57,515 nucleotides of DNA, from assembly GCA_002787235.1 (NCBI GenBank), contig PCWG01000015.1, positions 216,437 to 273,951 of the forward strand, given 5' to 3'. The stretch is from Nitrospinae bacterium CG11_big_fil_rev_8_21_14_0_20_45_15. GTDB taxonomy: Bacteria; Nitrospinota; Nitrospinia; Nitrospinales; VA-1. The translations under genes and the position numbers were made by a program. Under the pieces are notes generated by a model. That model was not told the DNA's origin. It did not search any database and saw nothing but the letters and a program-made list of their open reading frames with translations. Below, piece by piece: positions 968 to 9,249 of this stretch; positions within the stretch are counted from its first letter, which is position 1, and every line of letters starts with the position of its first letter.

Positions 968-3682
968 TTAGCTGATGTAAACGCATTGGCTAGCGGCTGT
1001 TCGTGTGTCCATATTTTTACCACGGTTGGTGTGATCGTCGATTTCGGCGGCACACCCGATCATCCTGCCGAAAAGGAAGGTCGAGAAACTTGCGGTCTCG
1101 ATATCTCTCTCGTCCAGTTTTCCGGCTTTGTATTCTTTCCAAACCATCTTCAGCAAAATGACCGCAATAACCGCGTCGATGTTGACGCAGTATATGTCTT
1201 TGCTGACTTTGGCTTTGAACAAACCGTTCACCAGTTGGTGATAATAATCGAGGAAAACGTTGTTCAGTCCCTTCTCCTCAAACAATTTGTTAACGAATAC
1301 TTCGCGCGGATCGTAGTTGACTTCCTTCCCTTTAAATATGGGATGGTTGACACAGGGAATCTTGTCAAATGCCAGGTTACCGATCGCTTTTTGTTTGGCC
1401 TTGTATGCGCCGTACTCTTTCGCACAAGTCAAAGCCATCTCTTCAAGATCCAAACCATGATTTTTGTCAGCAGCATCTGTCAGGTTGGTATCTTTGAATT
1501 GCTTGATCAAAAATGCCGCCGCTTCGTAACCGTTGCCACCATGTGCGAAGCCGGTATGCGTCAAGAATCCAATGAACGCCTTGTTGACTTGTACGCGTTC
1601 GGGTTGTTCGGGACCGTCCGCACTCACTGCGCCTTTGGAGCCTTGAGCAGAAATGGTTCCCGGACCGTTAGTGATGATGAGACCCAACAAAACCTGAAAC
1701 TCGTACAATTCATTATCGCTCGGCTCTCTGCCCATCAAGGCCAGAAATGCGGTTCTTGTGAAGCTGAATTCAGTGATCAGTTTCTTCAATTCAACGCCAC
1801 AAAAGGTGCTATCCGTTTGCGATGCGGCGGGAGCAGTGATACCCACCAGGGTGCTGTAGATTCGTGAATACCAGGGCAAACGAACCAGCGTGTCTTTGGA
1901 AATTTTCTTCCCTTTCAAGCTCGCCCAACCCAGCGTCATCCAGGTAGCCGCCATCAGTGCATCCAGTGTCAACGACTTGCCTTGTTTTTTTGCAAGATCC
2001 TGAAGGAAGCTGACGAACACGGATTTACCGGCAGAGTTCATTATCTCAGCCCAACCTGTCGCGCATCCATTTTCCTCGTCCGCCAAAAATGCAGACGCCT
2101 GCTCAACACCTTTGTCAATCAGATGCGAGTAGTCGAAGTCTTCACAAGGATCGGTCATTTTTTCATATTGAAAAATATCCAACAATGCTTGTGATGCCTG
2201 CATCGCTTTTTCAGCAACCTTTTTACCCACAACGGAGAGTGCTCCTGCGGCTACCGTATTGGGAGAATTGCCATTGGCGCGAGAAGCTTCAGCCACTGCG
2301 AGAGTCGCTTGGTCGTGTTGGCTGACATATCCGTTCAATGCCAGATTCGCGATCTTTTCACCATATTCGCAAGGATACTGACGTACCAATGCAAAAACGA
2401 GGTTGGCTTCAAATGTGTGTGTCGACGCATCCAAAATGGAAGTATTATGAATACGGGAAACTTGCGTTTTCGGATCCATCATCGAAGCACCACTGGCATC
2501 CTTCAAGGTTTCGCGACGGAACTGGGCACCTACATGTTTTTCCAACGCCGCAATCTGCTCGTTGTAGGGAGCGATCGCCTCTTCCGATTGGATGTCCAAC
2601 TCTGCCGGGAGTTCTACACCCTGATTGTTCGCAAACCAACACTTGAGGTCCAGATTTCCTTTGGGAGCGAAGTCTGGTTCTTGTCCATTGAGCTTCATAA
2701 CCGCAGTCAAAGCCGCCGGGATATGTGCGATGTTGGTGACAAGCGCGCCCTTCTTGGAGAATATGGGTTTCTCCGGGGTATAAATATCCTCGACACCAAA
2801 ATAGTCCATGAACCAACGCTCTTTTGCAAATGCATCGTCACCAGAACCCGCCAAAGAACCGGCATGACCGCACGCTTTTGTCAGGCGAGCTTTCCAACGA
2901 CCCACCACACAAGCGACTATGGGTTTATCGGAAGTCAAACCATATTCATAGTATCCACCGGGTTCGCTATACAAAACGGCCGCTTTGGAACGATCATCGT
3001 TTCCAAACGCATGCAGAAATTCCTGCGGTCCGTACTGGATATAAACGTCTTTACCGCTGGAAACGGATGTCGTTGTTCCCCATCCCCCCGTTGCCAGGTA
3101 AACGGCGATCGTCGTGGTAAAGTTGCCCGAGTTTGAAAAAAGCGCAACCGAACCTTTGATGAGTGACTCTTCAGGAGCATTGCCACCCAAAGCTCCGCCG
3201 ATGCGGACATGGTTCCATGAATCCGCCAGGCCCAGACAATTGCCGCCAAACAGATCGACCCCATTGGTCTGGCAGATAGCACGCATGATGCGCGAATCTT
3301 TAACGGAGACCTTTTCCGTCAAAACAATTACCTTTTTTAGATTGGGGTTGTGTCGAACCGCTTCCGCAACACCGTCTTTTACACCGGAAGGAGGCAAGTA
3401 CACAATGACCGTATTGAATTTATGGCCAGCTTCGCAACCTTCTTTGATCGAATTGTAAACCGGGATGTTACCGATTTTTGTGGGCAAAAATTTTCCCGAT
3501 TTTCCGGGACCCGTTCCAAACACAACATTCCCACCTGAATATTCATGGCTGATGGGGGTTACTGTGGAACTTTCATTTCCTAAAATATTTAAAACGACGA
3601 CGCGGTCGTCTTTAGTTGCTAGCTGATCCAACGAATTGATTCCTACATAGTAGGGGAATTCCTTGATGCCTTCCTTATGCAT
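968..3682 (-). CDS. aclA: ATP-citrate lyase, large (alpha) subunit, divergent type
   Basis: With AclB this cleaves citrate with ATP and CoA to oxaloacetate and acetyl-CoA, the step that closes the reductive TCA cycle. The N-terminal half is a succinyl-CoA-synthetase-like CoA-binding/ligase module (GNCLG at about 147-151; phosphohistidine loop CGHAGSLAGSG with His273). The C-terminal half is a citrate-synthase-like module, with THTGFAHGGNGYEAA, a conserved His780 in VNHPIFKGK, and CVNIDAVIAV. At 904 residues it is about 300 longer than the Chlorobium AclA. The extra length, an alpha-helical stretch around residues 490-640, fits the divergent (type II) ACL. A GGGAGA ribosome site precedes the ATG. 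It is co-transcribed with aclB, 45 bases upstream. Confidence 0.9.
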   Translation of the reverse strand: MHKEGIKEFPYYVGINSLDQLATKDDRVVVLNILGNESSTVTPISHEYSGGNVVFGTGPGKSGKFLPTKIGNIPVYNSIKEGCEAGHKFNTVIVYLPPSGVKDGVAEAVRHNPNLKKVIVLTEKVSVKDSRIMRAICQTNGVDLFGGNCLGLADSWNHVRIGGALGGNAPEESLIKGSVALFSNSGNFTTTIAVYLATGGWGTTTSVSSGKDVYIQYGPQEFLHAFGNDDRSKAAVLYSEPGGYYEYGLTSDKPIVACVVGRWKARLTKACGHAGSLAGSGDDAFAKERWFMDYFGVEDIYTPEKPIFSKKGALVTNIAHIPAALTAVMKLNGQEPDFAPKGNLDLKCWFANNQGVELPAELDIQSEEAIAPYNEQIAALEKHVGAQFRRETLKDASGASMMDPKTQVSRIHNTSILDASTHTFEANLVFALVRQYPCEYGEKIANLALNGYVSQHDQATLAVAEASRANGNSPNTVAAGALSVVGKKVAEKAMQASQALLDIFQYEKMTDPCEDFDYSHLIDKGVEQASAFLADEENGCATGWAEIMNSAGKSVFVSFLQDLAKKQGKSLTLDALMAATWMTLGWASLKGKKISKDTLVRLPWYSRIYSTLVGITAPAASQTDSTFCGVELKKLITEFSFTRTAFLALMGREPSDNELYEFQVLLGLIITNGPGTISAQGSKGAVSADGPEQPERVQVNKAFIGFLTHTGFAHGGNGYEAAAFLIKQFKDTNLTDAADKNHGLDLEEMALTCAKEYGAYKAKQKAIGNLAFDKIPCVNHPIFKGKEVNYDPREVFVNKLFEEKGLNNVFLDYYHQLVNGLFKAKVSKDIYCVNIDAVIAVILLKMVWKEYKAGKLDERDIETASFSTFLFGRMIGCAAEIDDHTNRGKNMDTRTAASQCVYIS

Positions 3683-3727
3683 TATTTCAGTCTCCCTGAA
3701 TGGATATTACGATTCTGTTTCTGATAA

Positions 3728-4990
3728 CTAGATATTCATCTTCCCTTTAATCACTTCGGCTCCGCCATTTTTCATCCAATTATTCACTTTCATGGTGTAA
3801 TTGACGACTTCTGACATGGCACTGTCAAAACCGAAGAAACGATAAGGCAAGCCTAGCTGATCCAGGGTGTCGCGAAAATAGGACATGCCTCTGATCACGT
3901 TCGGTCCACCTCGGCCAACCACAACGAACAAAGGTTTCGGCCCGTGCTCTTGAAAATATGTTCTCAATGCGTCTGCAATTGCGCGGAAAGTTTCATAAAT
4001 ATCCGTATTATTCGCCTTACCACCGATGACAAACAGGACGTTGGATTGTCCCAACCAGTGATTGAAAGTGATTCGGGAAATCTCATTCATCTTTTCATAA
4101 GGTGGATTGCCACCAAAGTCAGATGAAATCGTCGCACTCTCGCCCAAAAGTTCCGTCACCATCGCATTTGCTCCACCACCAAAAGTTGGGGCAGTCACGT
4201 CGCCATTTTCGTTGATAACAAAAACGTCACTCTGGCCCTGATAGGTTCGCAATTGGTTGATCTCTTGCTCAAACTCAGAATAATCCGACGCAAAAATATG
4301 AGACGGAAGGTTCAGACGCTTCCAAGCCGGATCGTCAATATCGAAAGCACATTTGAAGTCACAGGCAACTGGAGTCAAACGTTTGCCCTTCATCATGCGA
4401 ATCGGATTCAACTCCAGCATGGTCATTCCATAGTTATTGAACAAATCCCAAAGCTTCGGCAAGTTTTGTACCAGCGGGCTGATGATCTCGCTTGGAGCAC
4501 CCAGACTCATCAAAGCATTGGAGACATGAAAGGCTTTCAATCCAGTCAATGGATCGAAAGGGACTTCAATGATTTTATCTTTGTCCAGCTCCTCGATATC
4601 CACACCACCGTGATGCGTGATGGTCATCGTCGGGGCTCGATATTTGGTATTGTCCGCGATCGAAAAATAGACCTCATAATCTGCAGGAACACCGCCTTCA
4701 TAAGTAACACCATCAGACTTATTGATGGAATCACCTACTTTATGTTCAGCAAAGTAAAGACGTTCTTTTTCCTTCAATGCATCTGTGATGTTGTTCACAC
4801 GACCCAATAACCCAGCCTTGCCTTTTTTACCAACACCGCCTTTGAAAACAGGTTTGATAAAAACCTGACCATGGCGTTTGATCATGTCTTTGATTTCATC
4901 AACACTGAGTTCTGGTCCACGTACTTCTGAATGCGGGAACTCCACAAGGTCCAGCAATTTCCTTCCCCAAAGCATACCCGTAATTTGCAT
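3728..4990 (-). CDS. aclB: ATP-citrate lyase, small (beta) subunit
   Basis: The ATP-grasp, citrate-binding subunit of ATP-citrate lyase. The 420 residues include VFIKPVFKGGVGKKGKAGL near residue 43 (ATP-grasp lysines), a MLELNPIRM strand (Glu and Asn for Mg-nucleotide), CDFKCAFD, and a C-terminal flavodoxin-like citrate domain with TFGGGANAM, SDFGGNPP and VVVGRGGPNVIRGM. The length is close to the roughly 400 residues of the Chlorobium subunit. A GGAGG site lies about 13 bases before the ATG. It is the first gene of the aclBA pair, so both subunits would be made from one message. Confidence 0.9.
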   Translation of the reverse strand: MQITGMLWGRKLLDLVEFPHSEVRGPELSVDEIKDMIKRHGQVFIKPVFKGGVGKKGKAGLLGRVNNITDALKEKERLYFAEHKVGDSINKSDGVTYEGGVPADYEVYFSIADNTKYRAPTMTITHHGGVDIEELDKDKIIEVPFDPLTGLKAFHVSNALMSLGAPSEIISPLVQNLPKLWDLFNNYGMTMLELNPIRMMKGKRLTPVACDFKCAFDIDDPAWKRLNLPSHIFASDYSEFEQEINQLRTYQGQSDVFVINENGDVTAPTFGGGANAMVTELLGESATISSDFGGNPPYEKMNEISRITFNHWLGQSNVLFVIGGKANNTDIYETFRAIADALRTYFQEHGPKPLFVVVGRGGPNVIRGMSYFRDTLDQLGLPYRFFGFDSAMSEVVNYTMKVNNWMKNGGAEVIKGKMNI

Positions 4991-5677
4991 AACCCTCTCT
5001 TATCCTCCAAGCTGTTTAAAGAAAATAAAGGCAAATAGATCAATGGAGCCAATCCGAAGCAAAGAAAATGCCTCTCCTACTCCAAAATAAAACATAGTTC
5101 GAATAAAAAACCCCCATTCTAAAGAATTTACAGCCCATGTCAAACCTAAAAGAAGAAGATTCACAAGAATTATCATCGTTCAAAGCATTCATTATCATTT
5201 CAATGAATTTCAATCGTTCTAAGATTTTTCGCCTCCAGGACCACAACCGTTTCTAACCCCGTCTATAAAAAAACAGCCTCAGTTTAAAAATCAAAATTAC
5301 TTATTTTTAAATGTAATTGATGTGAAAAACATTTTAGAGCTCCAGATACGGGAATCCCGAAAGCAAATTTTCACGCACAAAATCCTCAATCCAATAAATA
5401 AAAATTGACCAACGACTCCTTGAAAATATTATTGCCCACGCAATTCTGAGAATTCCGATAGGTGAAAAAACAGGGGAATATTATTCTAAAACCATTAAAT
5501 TTTATTTTTTTTACTTTTAGCACCAAAATTGCAATAAATTCCTTGCTTTTTTCTAATTTGACTGGTATTTTCTTTGATTTATTTATTATGGGAGTAATAG
5601 TATTACCAGTTGGGTCTACTTTTTCTTACAGAAATCGATCACTTTAGATTATAAGTGCATCTCTTGGGGGGGCGACC
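4991..5677. other. A+T-rich intergenic region between divergent aclB and the DksA-like gene
   Basis: About 690 bases separate the two divergent genes. Apart from the weak aclB promoter candidate I see no RNA gene and no convincing ORF. The one 68-codon ORF on the minus strand (5040-5246) has no family resemblance and no good start signal. The region probably holds the promoters of both flanking genes. Confidence 0.5.
5015..5043 (-). promoter_or_regulatory. aclB: Possible sigma70-type promoter of aclBA
   Basis: On the minus strand TTGATC is followed by 17 bases and TTTAAA, about 25 bases before the aclB ATG. Each box matches four of six consensus positions. The leader would be very short, so this is a weak candidate. 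Confidence 0.3.
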
Positions 5678-6553
5678 ATGGCGAATACAAAAAAAAAGGT
5701 AGCAACTAAAAAAAATCCTGGGAAAGCCCCTGAAAAGGCAACAAAAAAGAAAGTCAATTTGAAAAAATCTAATCTTTCATCCACTAAGAAAGCTGGCGTT
5801 GCAAAAGTCTCCAAAAAAGAAGTACCCAAAAAGGTTTCCGCTACTTCCCAAAAACGGGTAGATAAAAAAAAGAGTATTGCAAAAGCTTCCCCAAAAGCGG
5901 CATCCAAAAAGATTTCTGCTACTTCCCCAAAACCGGCAAATAAAAAAAAGAGTGTCGCAAAAATTTCCCAAAAAACGGTAACGAAAAAGGTTTCTGCCAC
6001 TTCCCCAAAACCGGCAAATAAAAAAAAGAGTGCCGCAAAAATTTCCAAAAAAACGGTAACGAAAAAGGTTTCTAAAGTGTCACCCAAATCCTCTCCAAAA
6101 AAGAAGACTCCTGTAGCAAAAACCAAGTCCACTCCTGCAAAGAGAACAGTCATCGCCAGGGAAGAGGTCGTGGAGCAGAAAAAAAGTCCGTCCACAAACG
6201 CTTTGTCCGATCCTTTAATAAAAAAAATAAAGGAAAATCTGGTCAGTTCGAGAGAAGAGCTTCTTAGAATTATCCACTCCTCCCAGAATATGGAAAGAGA
6301 TATAGGTGATCTCACATTCAGCAATGAGATCGACTTGGCATCTAGTCTGGAAGGAAGGGAAATGATGTTTCAGTTGACCAGCAGAGACCGCAATGGTTTG
6401 AAGTTGATCGACGATGCTTTGATTAAAATTAAGGAGGGGACTTACGGTTATTGTGAATCCTGCGAAAAGAAAATCAGTTCCAAACGTTTGCAAATCCTTC
6501 CGCTAAGCCCGCTTTGCATTGAATGCCAAACAACGGCTGAAAACAACGGTTGA
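5678..6553 (+). CDS. DksA/TraR-type zinc-finger protein with histone H1-like lysine-rich N-terminal tail
   Basis: The C-terminal third (about residues 190-291) is a DksA/TraR-type domain: a helical coiled-coil segment, then a four-Cys zinc finger with Cys259, Cys262, Cys280 and Cys283 (GYCESCEKKIS...PLCIECQ). Such proteins bind the RNA polymerase secondary channel and modulate transcription. The first 165 or so residues are almost only Lys, Ala, Ser, Thr, Pro and Val, in imperfect repeats of about 24 residues (KKVSATSPKPANKKKS-type), like histone H1 or AlgP tails that coat DNA. The repeats are also visible in the DNA at about 5820-6075. The ATG at 5678 follows a G7 run (5666-5672) that may serve as the ribosome site. 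Tail function is inferred from composition. Confidence 0.85.
   Translation: MANTKKKVATKKNPGKAPEKATKKKVNLKKSNLSSTKKAGVAKVSKKEVPKKVSATSQKRVDKKKSIAKASPKAASKKISATSPKPANKKKSVAKISQKTVTKKVSATSPKPANKKKSAAKISKKTVTKKVSKVSPKSSPKKKTPVAKTKSTPAKRTVIAREEVVEQKKSPSTNALSDPLIKKIKENLVSSREELLRIIHSSQNMERDIGDLTFSNEIDLASSLEGREMMFQLTSRDRNGLKLIDDALIKIKEGTYGYCESCEKKISSKRLQILPLSPLCIECQTTAENNG
5820..6075 (+). repeat. In-frame tandem repeats of about 72 bases encoding the lysine-rich tail
   Basis: Three to four imperfect copies of a 72-base unit (24 codons) run in frame. The best pair covers the two blocks that each begin AAGGTTTCTGC and contain CCGGCAAATAAAAAAAAGAG. Near identity between the last copies suggests recent duplication and possible length variation between strains. 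Confidence 0.75.
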
Positions 6554-6614: not shown

Positions 6615-6624
6615 GGGGGGGGGG
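6615..6624 (+). repeat. G10 homopolymer tract
   Basis: Ten consecutive G residues lie between the 3' end of the DksA-like gene and the 3' end of secA. The tract is outside both coding regions. Such tracts are prone to slippage and sequencing error. Confidence 0.8.
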
Positions 6625-6666: not shown

Positions 6667-9249
6667 TCACTGACCGCAACACTTCTTGTATTTTTTGCCA
6701 CTGCCACACGAACAGGGGTCGTTCCGCCCTACTTTCATTTCATCTCTTTTCACCGGTTCCGGCGTTTCTTCAATCACTTCATCACCACGATGTTCCACTA
6801 CCTTAGGCTCTTTATGTTCGAGCTCTTTAATGGAGTGACTTTCTTCGGGATGACTTTCTTCAAAGCTGTATTGAGCTTTGAAAAGAAATTCGACACATTC
6901 TTCCTGAATCAGGTTCATCATCTCAGCAAACATGGCGAACCCTTCTTTCTTATACTCGGTCAGAGGATTCTTCTGAGCGTAACCACGAAGTCCAATGCCC
7001 TCTTTCATGTGGTCCATTCCCAACAGATGGTCTTTCCATAATTTGTCGAGAACTTGAAGCATGACCATCTTTTCCAAATTTCTAATCGCTTCAGGTCGGA
7101 TATCTTCGACTTTATGATTGTAAACCCGCACCAGTTCGTCAAAAATAGCTGTCGTCAATTTTGTTTTGTCGCAATGCTCCAGCGGTAAAGTAATATTTTC
7201 ATTGATGATGATTTCTTCATCGCTTGGCTTTTCTACTCCGATACCAAACATTCGGAAAAGAAACTCATTCAATTCCTCTATATTCCATTCTTCTGGATAA
7301 ACAGAGTCCGGCGCAATTTCTTCGATTCGATTTATCAGAACCTCTTCTGCCATTTCCATCAGCAGTTCATTTTGATTCTCACCCAACAGGATGTCTTTTC
7401 GCAAGGAATACAAAACCTCACGTTGTTTGTTCATGACATCGTCGTACTCAAGGAGATGTTTGCGGCTGTCAAAATGATGGGCTTCTACTTTTTTCTGTGC
7501 ATTGGCCACCGCCCGACTGATCATAGTGTGTTCGATTGGCTGTCCATTTTCCAAGCCCAACTTTTGCATGAGACCGGAAATTTTTTCGGAACCAAAAATC
7601 CGCATGAGGTCATCATCCAGCGACAAGTAAAAGCGGGAGGAACCTTTGTCTCCCTGCCTACCCGAACGACCGCGCAACTGGTTGTCGATTCGCCGACTTT
7701 CATGGCGCTCTGTTCCCAGAATATGCAATCCACCCAGAGCAGGAACCGTTTCCCCTAAAACAATATCCGTTCCTCTACCTGCCATATTGGTCGCAATCGT
7801 CACGGCACCCTCTTGACCCGCCTGGGCAATGATTTCGGCTTCCTGAGCATGACGTTTGGCATTCAACACATTGTGCTTGATACCAAAACGCGTCAATACT
7901 TTGCTCAATGCTTCGGACTTTTCAATTGAAATTGTTCCGACCAAAACCGGGCGTCCGATTTTATTGAGTTCACGAACCTCCTCAACCACGGCATCAAATT
8001 TTTCTTTTTCTGTACCGTAAATCACATCGGGGTAATCTTCTCTCACCATCGGTTTATTGGTGGGGATAACGACCACTTCCAAACCGTAAATGGAATGAAA
8101 TTCACTGGCTTCTGTATCCGCTGTTCCCGTCATTCCTGCAAGCTTGTCGTACATACGGAAATAATTCTGAAAGGTGATCGTCGCCAGGGTTTGATTTTCG
8201 TTTTCAATCGTCACACCTTCTTTAGCTTCCAGAGCTTGATGGAGTCCGTCGCCATAACGTCGCCCCGTCATCATGCGTCCGGTGAATTCATCGATAATGA
8301 CAACCTGCCCCTCGTCATTCACAACATAATCCACTTCGTTCTTGTACATGGTGTGCGCCCTTAGAGCCTGGGAAACACAGTGCAGAATTTCAATATTTTT
8401 AGGGTCGTAGAGGTTCTCAATTCCTAATATTTTTTCAACATCAGCGATACCCACTTCTGTGAGAGCCGCGGTCTTTGTTTTTTCTTCAACCGTGTAATGT
8501 TTTTCTTTCTTCAGATGAGGAATGACTTTATTTGCTTCTGCATATTTGGTTGTAGATTCTTCAGCAAGACCGGATATGATGAGAGGCGTTCTCGACTCGT
8601 CGATCAAAATGCTGTCCACTTCATCCACAATCGCAAAGTTCAACTCGCGTTGAGCAAACTGACGGGCATCGTACTTCATGTTATCCCGCAGATAATCGAA
8701 ACCAAGTTCGTTATTGGTAGCATAGGTGACATCGCAATGGTAGGCCGCCCTACGCTCTATATCATTTAAACTGTGGCGCACCACACCCACCGACAAGCCC
8801 ATATATGTATAGAGTTTTCCCATCCACTCCGCATCACGCTGGGCCAGATATTCATTGACCGTAACAACATGAACACCCTTACCGGTCAAGGCATTCAAAT
8901 AAACAGGTAACGTCGCAACCAGAGTTTTACCTTCTCCGGTTTTCATTTCGGAAATCTTTCCCTCATGGAGAACCAAACCACCTATCAGCTGAACATCAAA
9001 ATGCCTCATGCCCAACGAACGCACCCCGGCTTCACGCACCACAGCAAAAGCCTCGGGTAAGATTTCATCCAGAGTCGCACCTTGACTCAAACGTTCCTTA
9101 AACTCAATTGTTTTGGCTTTCAAAGCATCGTCGTCAAGTTTCACAATGCTTTCTTCCAACGCATTGATTCGGTCAACCATTTGACGGTATCGTCTCAATT
9201 CTCTTTCATTGCGCGTACCAAATATCTTTGAAATAAATCCTAACGCCAT
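6667..9249 (-). CDS. secA: Preprotein translocase ATPase SecA
   Basis: The motor that drives unfolded precursors through SecYEG. All hallmark motifs are present: Walker A in [30 protein letters not shown] (Walker B), [28 protein letters not shown] and [12 protein letters not shown]. The C-terminus ends in the zinc-binding SecB-interaction tail [13 protein letters not shown]. At 860 residues it is of normal length. It lies downstream of an M23 peptidase gene on the same strand. Confidence 0.98.

Follow-up and report, generated by a model that had tools for sequence, protein, structure and literature searches.

A tailed DksA-type gene convergent to secA

The window, by which we mean the whole analysed stretch of 57,515 nucleotides, comes from the 3.37-Mb genome of a Nitrospinae bacterium of the order Nitrospinales. 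It contains a gene that joins a histone H1-like tail to a DksA-type domain and converges on secA (Table 1). The ATG that opens the frame is preceded by a G-rich ribosome-binding stretch. A misplaced start or a wrong frame was rejected as the source of the tail; GGAG-like ribosome-binding sequences precede most of the chosen starts. A viral or plasmid origin was also rejected: the ten pattern matches in viral contigs included none that codes for a relative, and among plasmids and phages the top matches were to ordinary DksA/TraR proteins.

Table 1. Features of the tailed DksA-type gene and its neighbour, in window coordinates
Feature	Position	Strand	Basis
Whole gene, H1-like tail plus DksA-type domain, 291 aa	5678..6553	+	Open frame; orthologues in 54/64 order genomes
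Lysine-rich disordered tail (predicted), residues 1-176	5678..6205	+	Composition; low pLDDT, no secondary structure
Tandem array, 78-base (26-aa) unit, 3.5 copies	5799..6073	+	TRF score 354; repeat search: 4 copies spaced 78, 78, 78
Decayed fourth repeat copy	extends to 6110	+	
DksA-type core, residues 177-291, coiled coil plus zinc finger	6206..6550	+	PDB sequence match, Foldseek, structural Z
Coiled-coil tip FSNEIDLAS, residues 214-222	6317..6343	+	Alignment with E. coli DksA
C4 zinc finger, residues 254-288 (C259, C262, C280, C283)	6437..6541	+	PF01258
secA, convergent neighbour marking the conserved locus	6667..9249	-	Pfam SecA domains

Two runs of G lie close to the gene, one of seven at 5666-5672, in its ribosome-binding region, and one of ten at 6615-6624, just 3' of it. 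The 7-G run is not kept in the nearest relative (genome G025), which leaves a slippage switch as no more than an idea. Opposite the tail, a 226-codon antisense frame (5644-6324, minus strand) forms a Phe/Leu-rich mirror of the lysine codons and is probably a by-product. Upstream, on the opposite strand, lies an ATP-citrate-lyase-type gene pair (Citrate_bind, ATP-grasp, Succ_CoA_lig; 968-4990); such a pair adjoins the gene in 2 of 109 loci, seen within limited flanks, both from one genome.

The profile PF01258 (DksA/TraR zinc finger) matched the core at 41.8 bits, against a curated cut-off of 24.9, and matched all 26 aligned order members; a PDB sequence search found E. coli DksA (1tjl) at 1.1e-10. 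An AlphaFold2 model built from the 26 aligned members predicted helices at residues 179-210 and 224-253 followed by the zinc-finger region, with pLDDT mostly about 90 and 59-77 around the tip. Residues 173-291 of the model are the part that matches DksA structures. The top Foldseek matches were P. aeruginosa DksA2 (4ijj, 3.4e-6) and then E. coli DksA (7khi, 5vsw and 1tjl, the last at 9.4e-5), and VIA-align gave Z scores of 11.9-12.1 for 5vsw, 4ijj, 1tjl and 7khi, with 9.4 for the next unrelated row. Beyond DksA relatives, the PDB matches from Foldseek and VIA-align were only common coiled coils. The first-pass annotation had read the protein as a DksA-type domain joined to an H1-like tail, and profile match, fold and composition bear out both parts; the lack of a DksA fold, which it had allowed for, is not what the structure prediction gave. 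Because the core scores below the NCBIfam DksA equivalogs (73.9 against a cut-off of 105 for NF033459 and 66.4 against 115.5 for TIGR02420), we class it as DksA-type and not as DksA.

Equivalents of E. coli D74, A76 (which we take to be a coiled-coil tip residue of that protein) and R91, together with the four cysteines, are kept in 21 of 21 order rows. The same 21 rows all have N at the D71 equivalent, and L, M or R in place of K98, the ppGpp site 2 residue; the untailed sister rows (3/3) have D71 and lack K98. The tip FSNEIDLAS is invariant or nearly so in both alignments (A1 and A2) and, together with the helix that follows, is conserved more strongly than the rest of the protein. In E. coli DksA, according to a section of PMC10746185, R91A weakens polymerase binding, D71N/D74N spoils regulation while leaving binding intact, and K98A blocks ppGpp at site 2. 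The protein thus has in common with E. coli DksA (1tjl) and P. aeruginosa DksA2 (4ijj) the fold, D74, A76, R91, the C4 zinc finger and the length of the coiled coil, the distance from D74 to the first cysteine being equal. Unlike them, it has a 176-aa basic tail, N at 71 and no K98, and it falls under the NCBIfam DksA cut-offs. Separately, we observed two DksA-type proteins with replaced zinc-finger cysteines, L179 (G279), which retains one of the four, and L213 (G576).

Composition and repeats of the tail across the order

An orthologue was found in 54 of 64 order genomes searched, 46 of which belong to the family of the window and 18 to three other families. The ten genomes without one are G002 (91% complete) and nine of 59-86% completeness; a second, contig-edge copy in G042 was left out of the counts. 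Close relatives of the core in named genomes (48 loci) are nearly all from Nitrospina, Nitrospinaceae, Nitrospinota or Nitrospinae, with three labelled Nitrospirae/Nitrospirota.

In the window protein, tail residues 1-176 comprise 31% K, 12.5% A, 23% S+T and 7% P, with a net charge of +51 and no F, W, Y or C. AlphaFold2 gave no secondary structure over residues 1-170 and a pLDDT of about 44-53 per ten-residue block. This segment is histone H1-like in being disordered, by prediction, as well as dominated by K/A/P/S/T and strongly positive.

With the start set at the first start codon having at least 4 K within 12 residues, a tail was present in all 48 orthologues with a readable N-terminus, at 102-205 aa (median 125). 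Five further orthologues, from G011, G018, G019, G029 and G032, are truncated at contig ends and lysine-rich as far as they go, and that of G014 has a masked N-terminus; these six were excluded from the 48. The first-pass annotation had envisaged a tail absent or frame-broken in all close relatives, and the reverse was found, every readable tail being open and lysine-rich. Across the 48 rows the tails contain 29-49% K (median 41%), carry net charges of +37 to +84, and are nearly free of F, W, Y and C; core charges are about -7 to +2 (54 rows). Third-position GC of the core spans 34-76% across the order. Tail lysine falls weakly with GC (rho -0.27, p 0.06), and it still makes up 29-37% of tails where core GC3 is 70-76%.

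The tail DNA of the window matches itself at 60% with a lag of 78 and at 28% with a lag of 72. The repeat had been described as near-identical units of 72 bases; by self-match and TRF the period is instead 78 bases (26 codons), and identity to the first copy is 79-81% for copies 2 and 3 and 60% for copy 4 (86% match over the array). That the tail is tandemly repeated was correct: a TRF score of at least 100 was reached by 22 of 54 order tails, compared with 0.35 expected from codon-shuffled tails. The best periods were multiples of 3 in 42 of 43 cases, repeat units vary from lineage to lineage, and 11 of the 54 tails have no array at a TRF score of 40. Pooled pN/pS among the window copies is 0.79, indicating that amino-acid change is weakly restrained.

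The suggestion that tail length may vary also holds, since repeat number differs between species: the 3.5 copies here compare with 4.4 copies of a related 78-base unit, at 96% match, in G025. The 26-aa units of these two species have on average 11.5 of 26 residues identical, with 7.3 lysine-on-lysine matches, each measure being reached by 4 of 20000 column permutations. The common unit points to one inherited array that would then have been homogenised or re-amplified separately. We conclude from these comparisons of sequence that the tail is conserved as a composition, namely charge, lysine density and length, and not as a fixed sequence.

Origin of the tail and tailed proteins elsewhere

Convergence with secA holds at 53 of the 54 order loci, and at the other one the contig runs out. 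In the nearest outgroup family, f7, the orthologue is untailed in all three cases, with 4-7 codons of open frame ahead of the ATG; it is convergent to secA in two of the three loci, and the third lies near a contig end. In a tree of 98 of the 106 rows, from which eight paralogue rows were excluded, the 20 order rows came out as a single clade (100/100), with the f7 rows next to it (85/80). Because an untailed sister form occupies the same secA locus while the tail is order-wide, the tail would most simply be an N-terminal addition at one fixed locus. An earlier tailed ancestor, followed by loss of the tail in f7, is possible, since the outgroup row of G046 is tailed and took no firm place in the tree. 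That row's locus, L131, encodes at 1808-2428 a DksA with a tail of about 80 aa and 51% K; it belongs to another family of the class and is not beside secA. We take the gene that follows it to resemble a sugar-phosphate isomerase.

The core profile was matched in 304 of 385 sampled genomes, 42 of them from the phylum of the window and the rest from elsewhere in the domain. Outside the phylum, 11 of 40 fetched places were tailed by a fixed rule, in a non-random set of which 28 were picked for long open frames and 12 as short. In a WhiB-bearing phylum, by inference the actinobacteria, 12 of 20 fetched places were tailed by the rule, including 6 of 8 in the genus coded g240, where rows G596 and G653 fail the rule yet carry a weaker K/A stretch. 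The g240 genomes are 6-10 Mb in size with a GC of 0.70-0.73 and WhiB present; we infer that this genus is Streptomyces and take its proteins as DdbA-like. On the tree, the tailed label changes at least 15 times, 11 of these changes being forced by starred branches. In family f18 we observed a candidate recent gain, in which tailed L159 (G359) clusters with untailed L152 (G228) and L154 (G085) at 100/98.

The DdbA-like actinobacterial cores form a distant clade. A single tailed ancestor shared with them was rejected: forcing the 20 order rows and eight g240 rows into one clade lowered lnL by 44.9 (p-AU 0.0066), where the eight rows were chosen after the tree had been seen, are presumed to be Streptomyces and are classed as DdbA-like, not as DdbA. 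The tailed places in other phyla argue that tailed DksAs recur, and rejection of the joint clade argues that the form of the order is independent of the DdbA-like ones. The first-pass annotation had held that few DksA proteins have such tails, which is not the case, with all 48 readable orthologues of the order tailed and other phyla represented too.

The architecture itself has been published before, for DdbA (SCO2075) of Streptomyces coelicolor, which was reportedly described by Aldridge et al. (2013, NAR 41:4813). A portion of PMC9043899 gives it an H1-like N-terminal domain and a DksA C-terminal end, and a portion of PMC11942623 has it modulating polymerase with ppGpp and organising DNA; between them the two papers present it as a protein that binds DNA. 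Common to DdbA and the Nitrospinales form are an N-terminal Lys/Ala-rich H1-like segment, a C-terminal DksA-like zinc finger and a proposed coupling of DNA conformation to transcription. The Nitrospinales form keeps the equivalents of R91 and A76, whereas both are missing from the DdbA-like g240 cores (2/2 rows checked); it lacks a DdbA-type acidic or spacer stretch before the core and has more K and less A. It has the DdbA architecture with a more DksA-like core, one locus across the order and, by the tree, a separate origin.

Other parallels concern the tail. Myxococcus CarD also combines a polymerase-binding domain with a basic, disordered DNA-binding tail, but its polymerase-binding domain is of the unrelated CdnL type and its HMGA-like tail is C-terminal, with AT-hooks. 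That tail can be exchanged for human histone H1, or for the disordered C-terminal region of H1, as stated in a section of PMC8156234, a precedent suggesting that a non-specific polycation is sufficient in principle. AlgP/AlgR3 and PhaF of Pseudomonas likewise have a repeat-built, Lys-rich disordered tail (KPAA repeats) of variable copy number, but no DksA domain, and the tail is C-terminal. Within the literature collection searched, papers on tailed DksAs were confined to Streptomyces; literature on H1-like or disordered tails with DksA consisted of AlgP, CarD and unrelated work, and that on Nitrospina with DksA of unrelated work only.

Proposed role and competing explanations

We consider it reasonably probable, from sequence, model and analogy, that the protein acts on RNA polymerase through the secondary channel and is anchored to the nucleoid by its polycationic tail, which would bind non-specifically. 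Judging by fold and residues, the C-terminal coiled coil would enter the secondary channel of RNA polymerase and act at its tip like DksA. Given its charge, its predicted disorder and the cases of DdbA, AlgP and CarD, the tail would attach to DNA, and to RNA in the vicinity, whatever the sequence. When bound to DNA, it would keep the factor on the nucleoid near transcribing polymerase, raising its local concentration, and it would perhaps compact DNA. Selection would act on charge, lysine density and length and not on a fixed sequence, leaving the tail free to grow and shrink by repeat slippage.

Because R91, D74 and the fold are kept while D71 and K98 are changed, polymerase binding through the secondary channel is expected, with a dependence on ppGpp that is changed or lost. 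At promoters the protein may act differently from DksA, given N at 71 and the replacement of K98. RelA/SpoT and HU-family proteins are encoded in all three genomes of the genus, as is an omega subunit (loci L221, L222 and L223) that begins with MKMQ or MEMQ. None of the three omegas starts with MAR, which we take to be the N-terminal omega motif of ppGpp site 1. The D71-to-N change at the tip and the gain of the tail map to one and the same segment of the tree, the f7 sister family having D. The joint appearance of N71 and the tail, the lost K98 and an omega without MAR raise the thought that polymerase might be controlled independently of ppGpp, with tail length doing the tuning. A stringent-response factor would then have been rebuilt in the order: tethered to chromatin, this DksA-type protein would owe its residency near polymerase to its tail and not to ppGpp site 2; we regard this as decidedly doubtful.

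The non-specific binding proposed for the tail could also concern another partner. Lys-rich tails are unspecific binders of polyanions, RNA included, and H1-like AlgP associates with DNA and with polyphosphate granules, according to a part of PMC9239181. The tail could thus mainly bind RNA, ribosomes or a polyanion such as polyphosphate, linking polymerase to transcripts or stress granules in place of coating DNA. Against polyphosphate as the target, the polyphosphate kinase profile PF02503 (PPK1) matched none of the three genus genomes but 7 of 14 control genomes, in a search confined to this one kinase family, PPK2 being another, and overall we hold this explanation to be unlikely. Another possibility is that the protein is in the first place a nucleoid-packing protein, its core a remnant or a dimer or anchor module without regulatory effect. 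The N at tip position 71 and the loss of K98 would fit, and the other DksA/TraR protein of the genome (own_par1), which has D71, D74 and A76, could be the working factor. However, own_par1 lacks R91, the tip and the next helix are the most conserved part of the tailed protein, with D74, A76 and R91 in every row examined, and HU-family packing proteins are already present, with five matches in the window genome. We consider a core without regulatory effect quite improbable.

The repeats invite a third explanation, in which the tail would have grown by replication slippage of A-rich codons, as low-complexity sequence that is almost neutral. Arrays are common and their units lineage-specific, amino-acid change among the copies is weakly restrained, and lysine declines slightly with GC. 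Drift of this kind is nevertheless hard to reconcile with the retention of an in-frame, strongly positive tail in 48 of 48 readable cases, with the 11 tails that lack a detectable array, or with a lysine content that stays at 29% or more where core GC3 is highest; we think it very improbable.

Returning to the tethered polymerase factor, the tailed DksA of Nitrospinales looks like a separate invention that was kept throughout the order, and its retention suggests that the protein probably ties transcription control to DNA itself. The combination of an H1-like tail and a DksA-type domain is not peculiar to Streptomyces, having a separate origin here and holding one locus across four families. 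The tailed form of the order and the untailed form of its sister family, at the same place, make a natural pair for asking what is gained from a chromatin-tethered polymerase factor. In addition, the turnover of repeats with charge kept would be a clean case of selection on composition.
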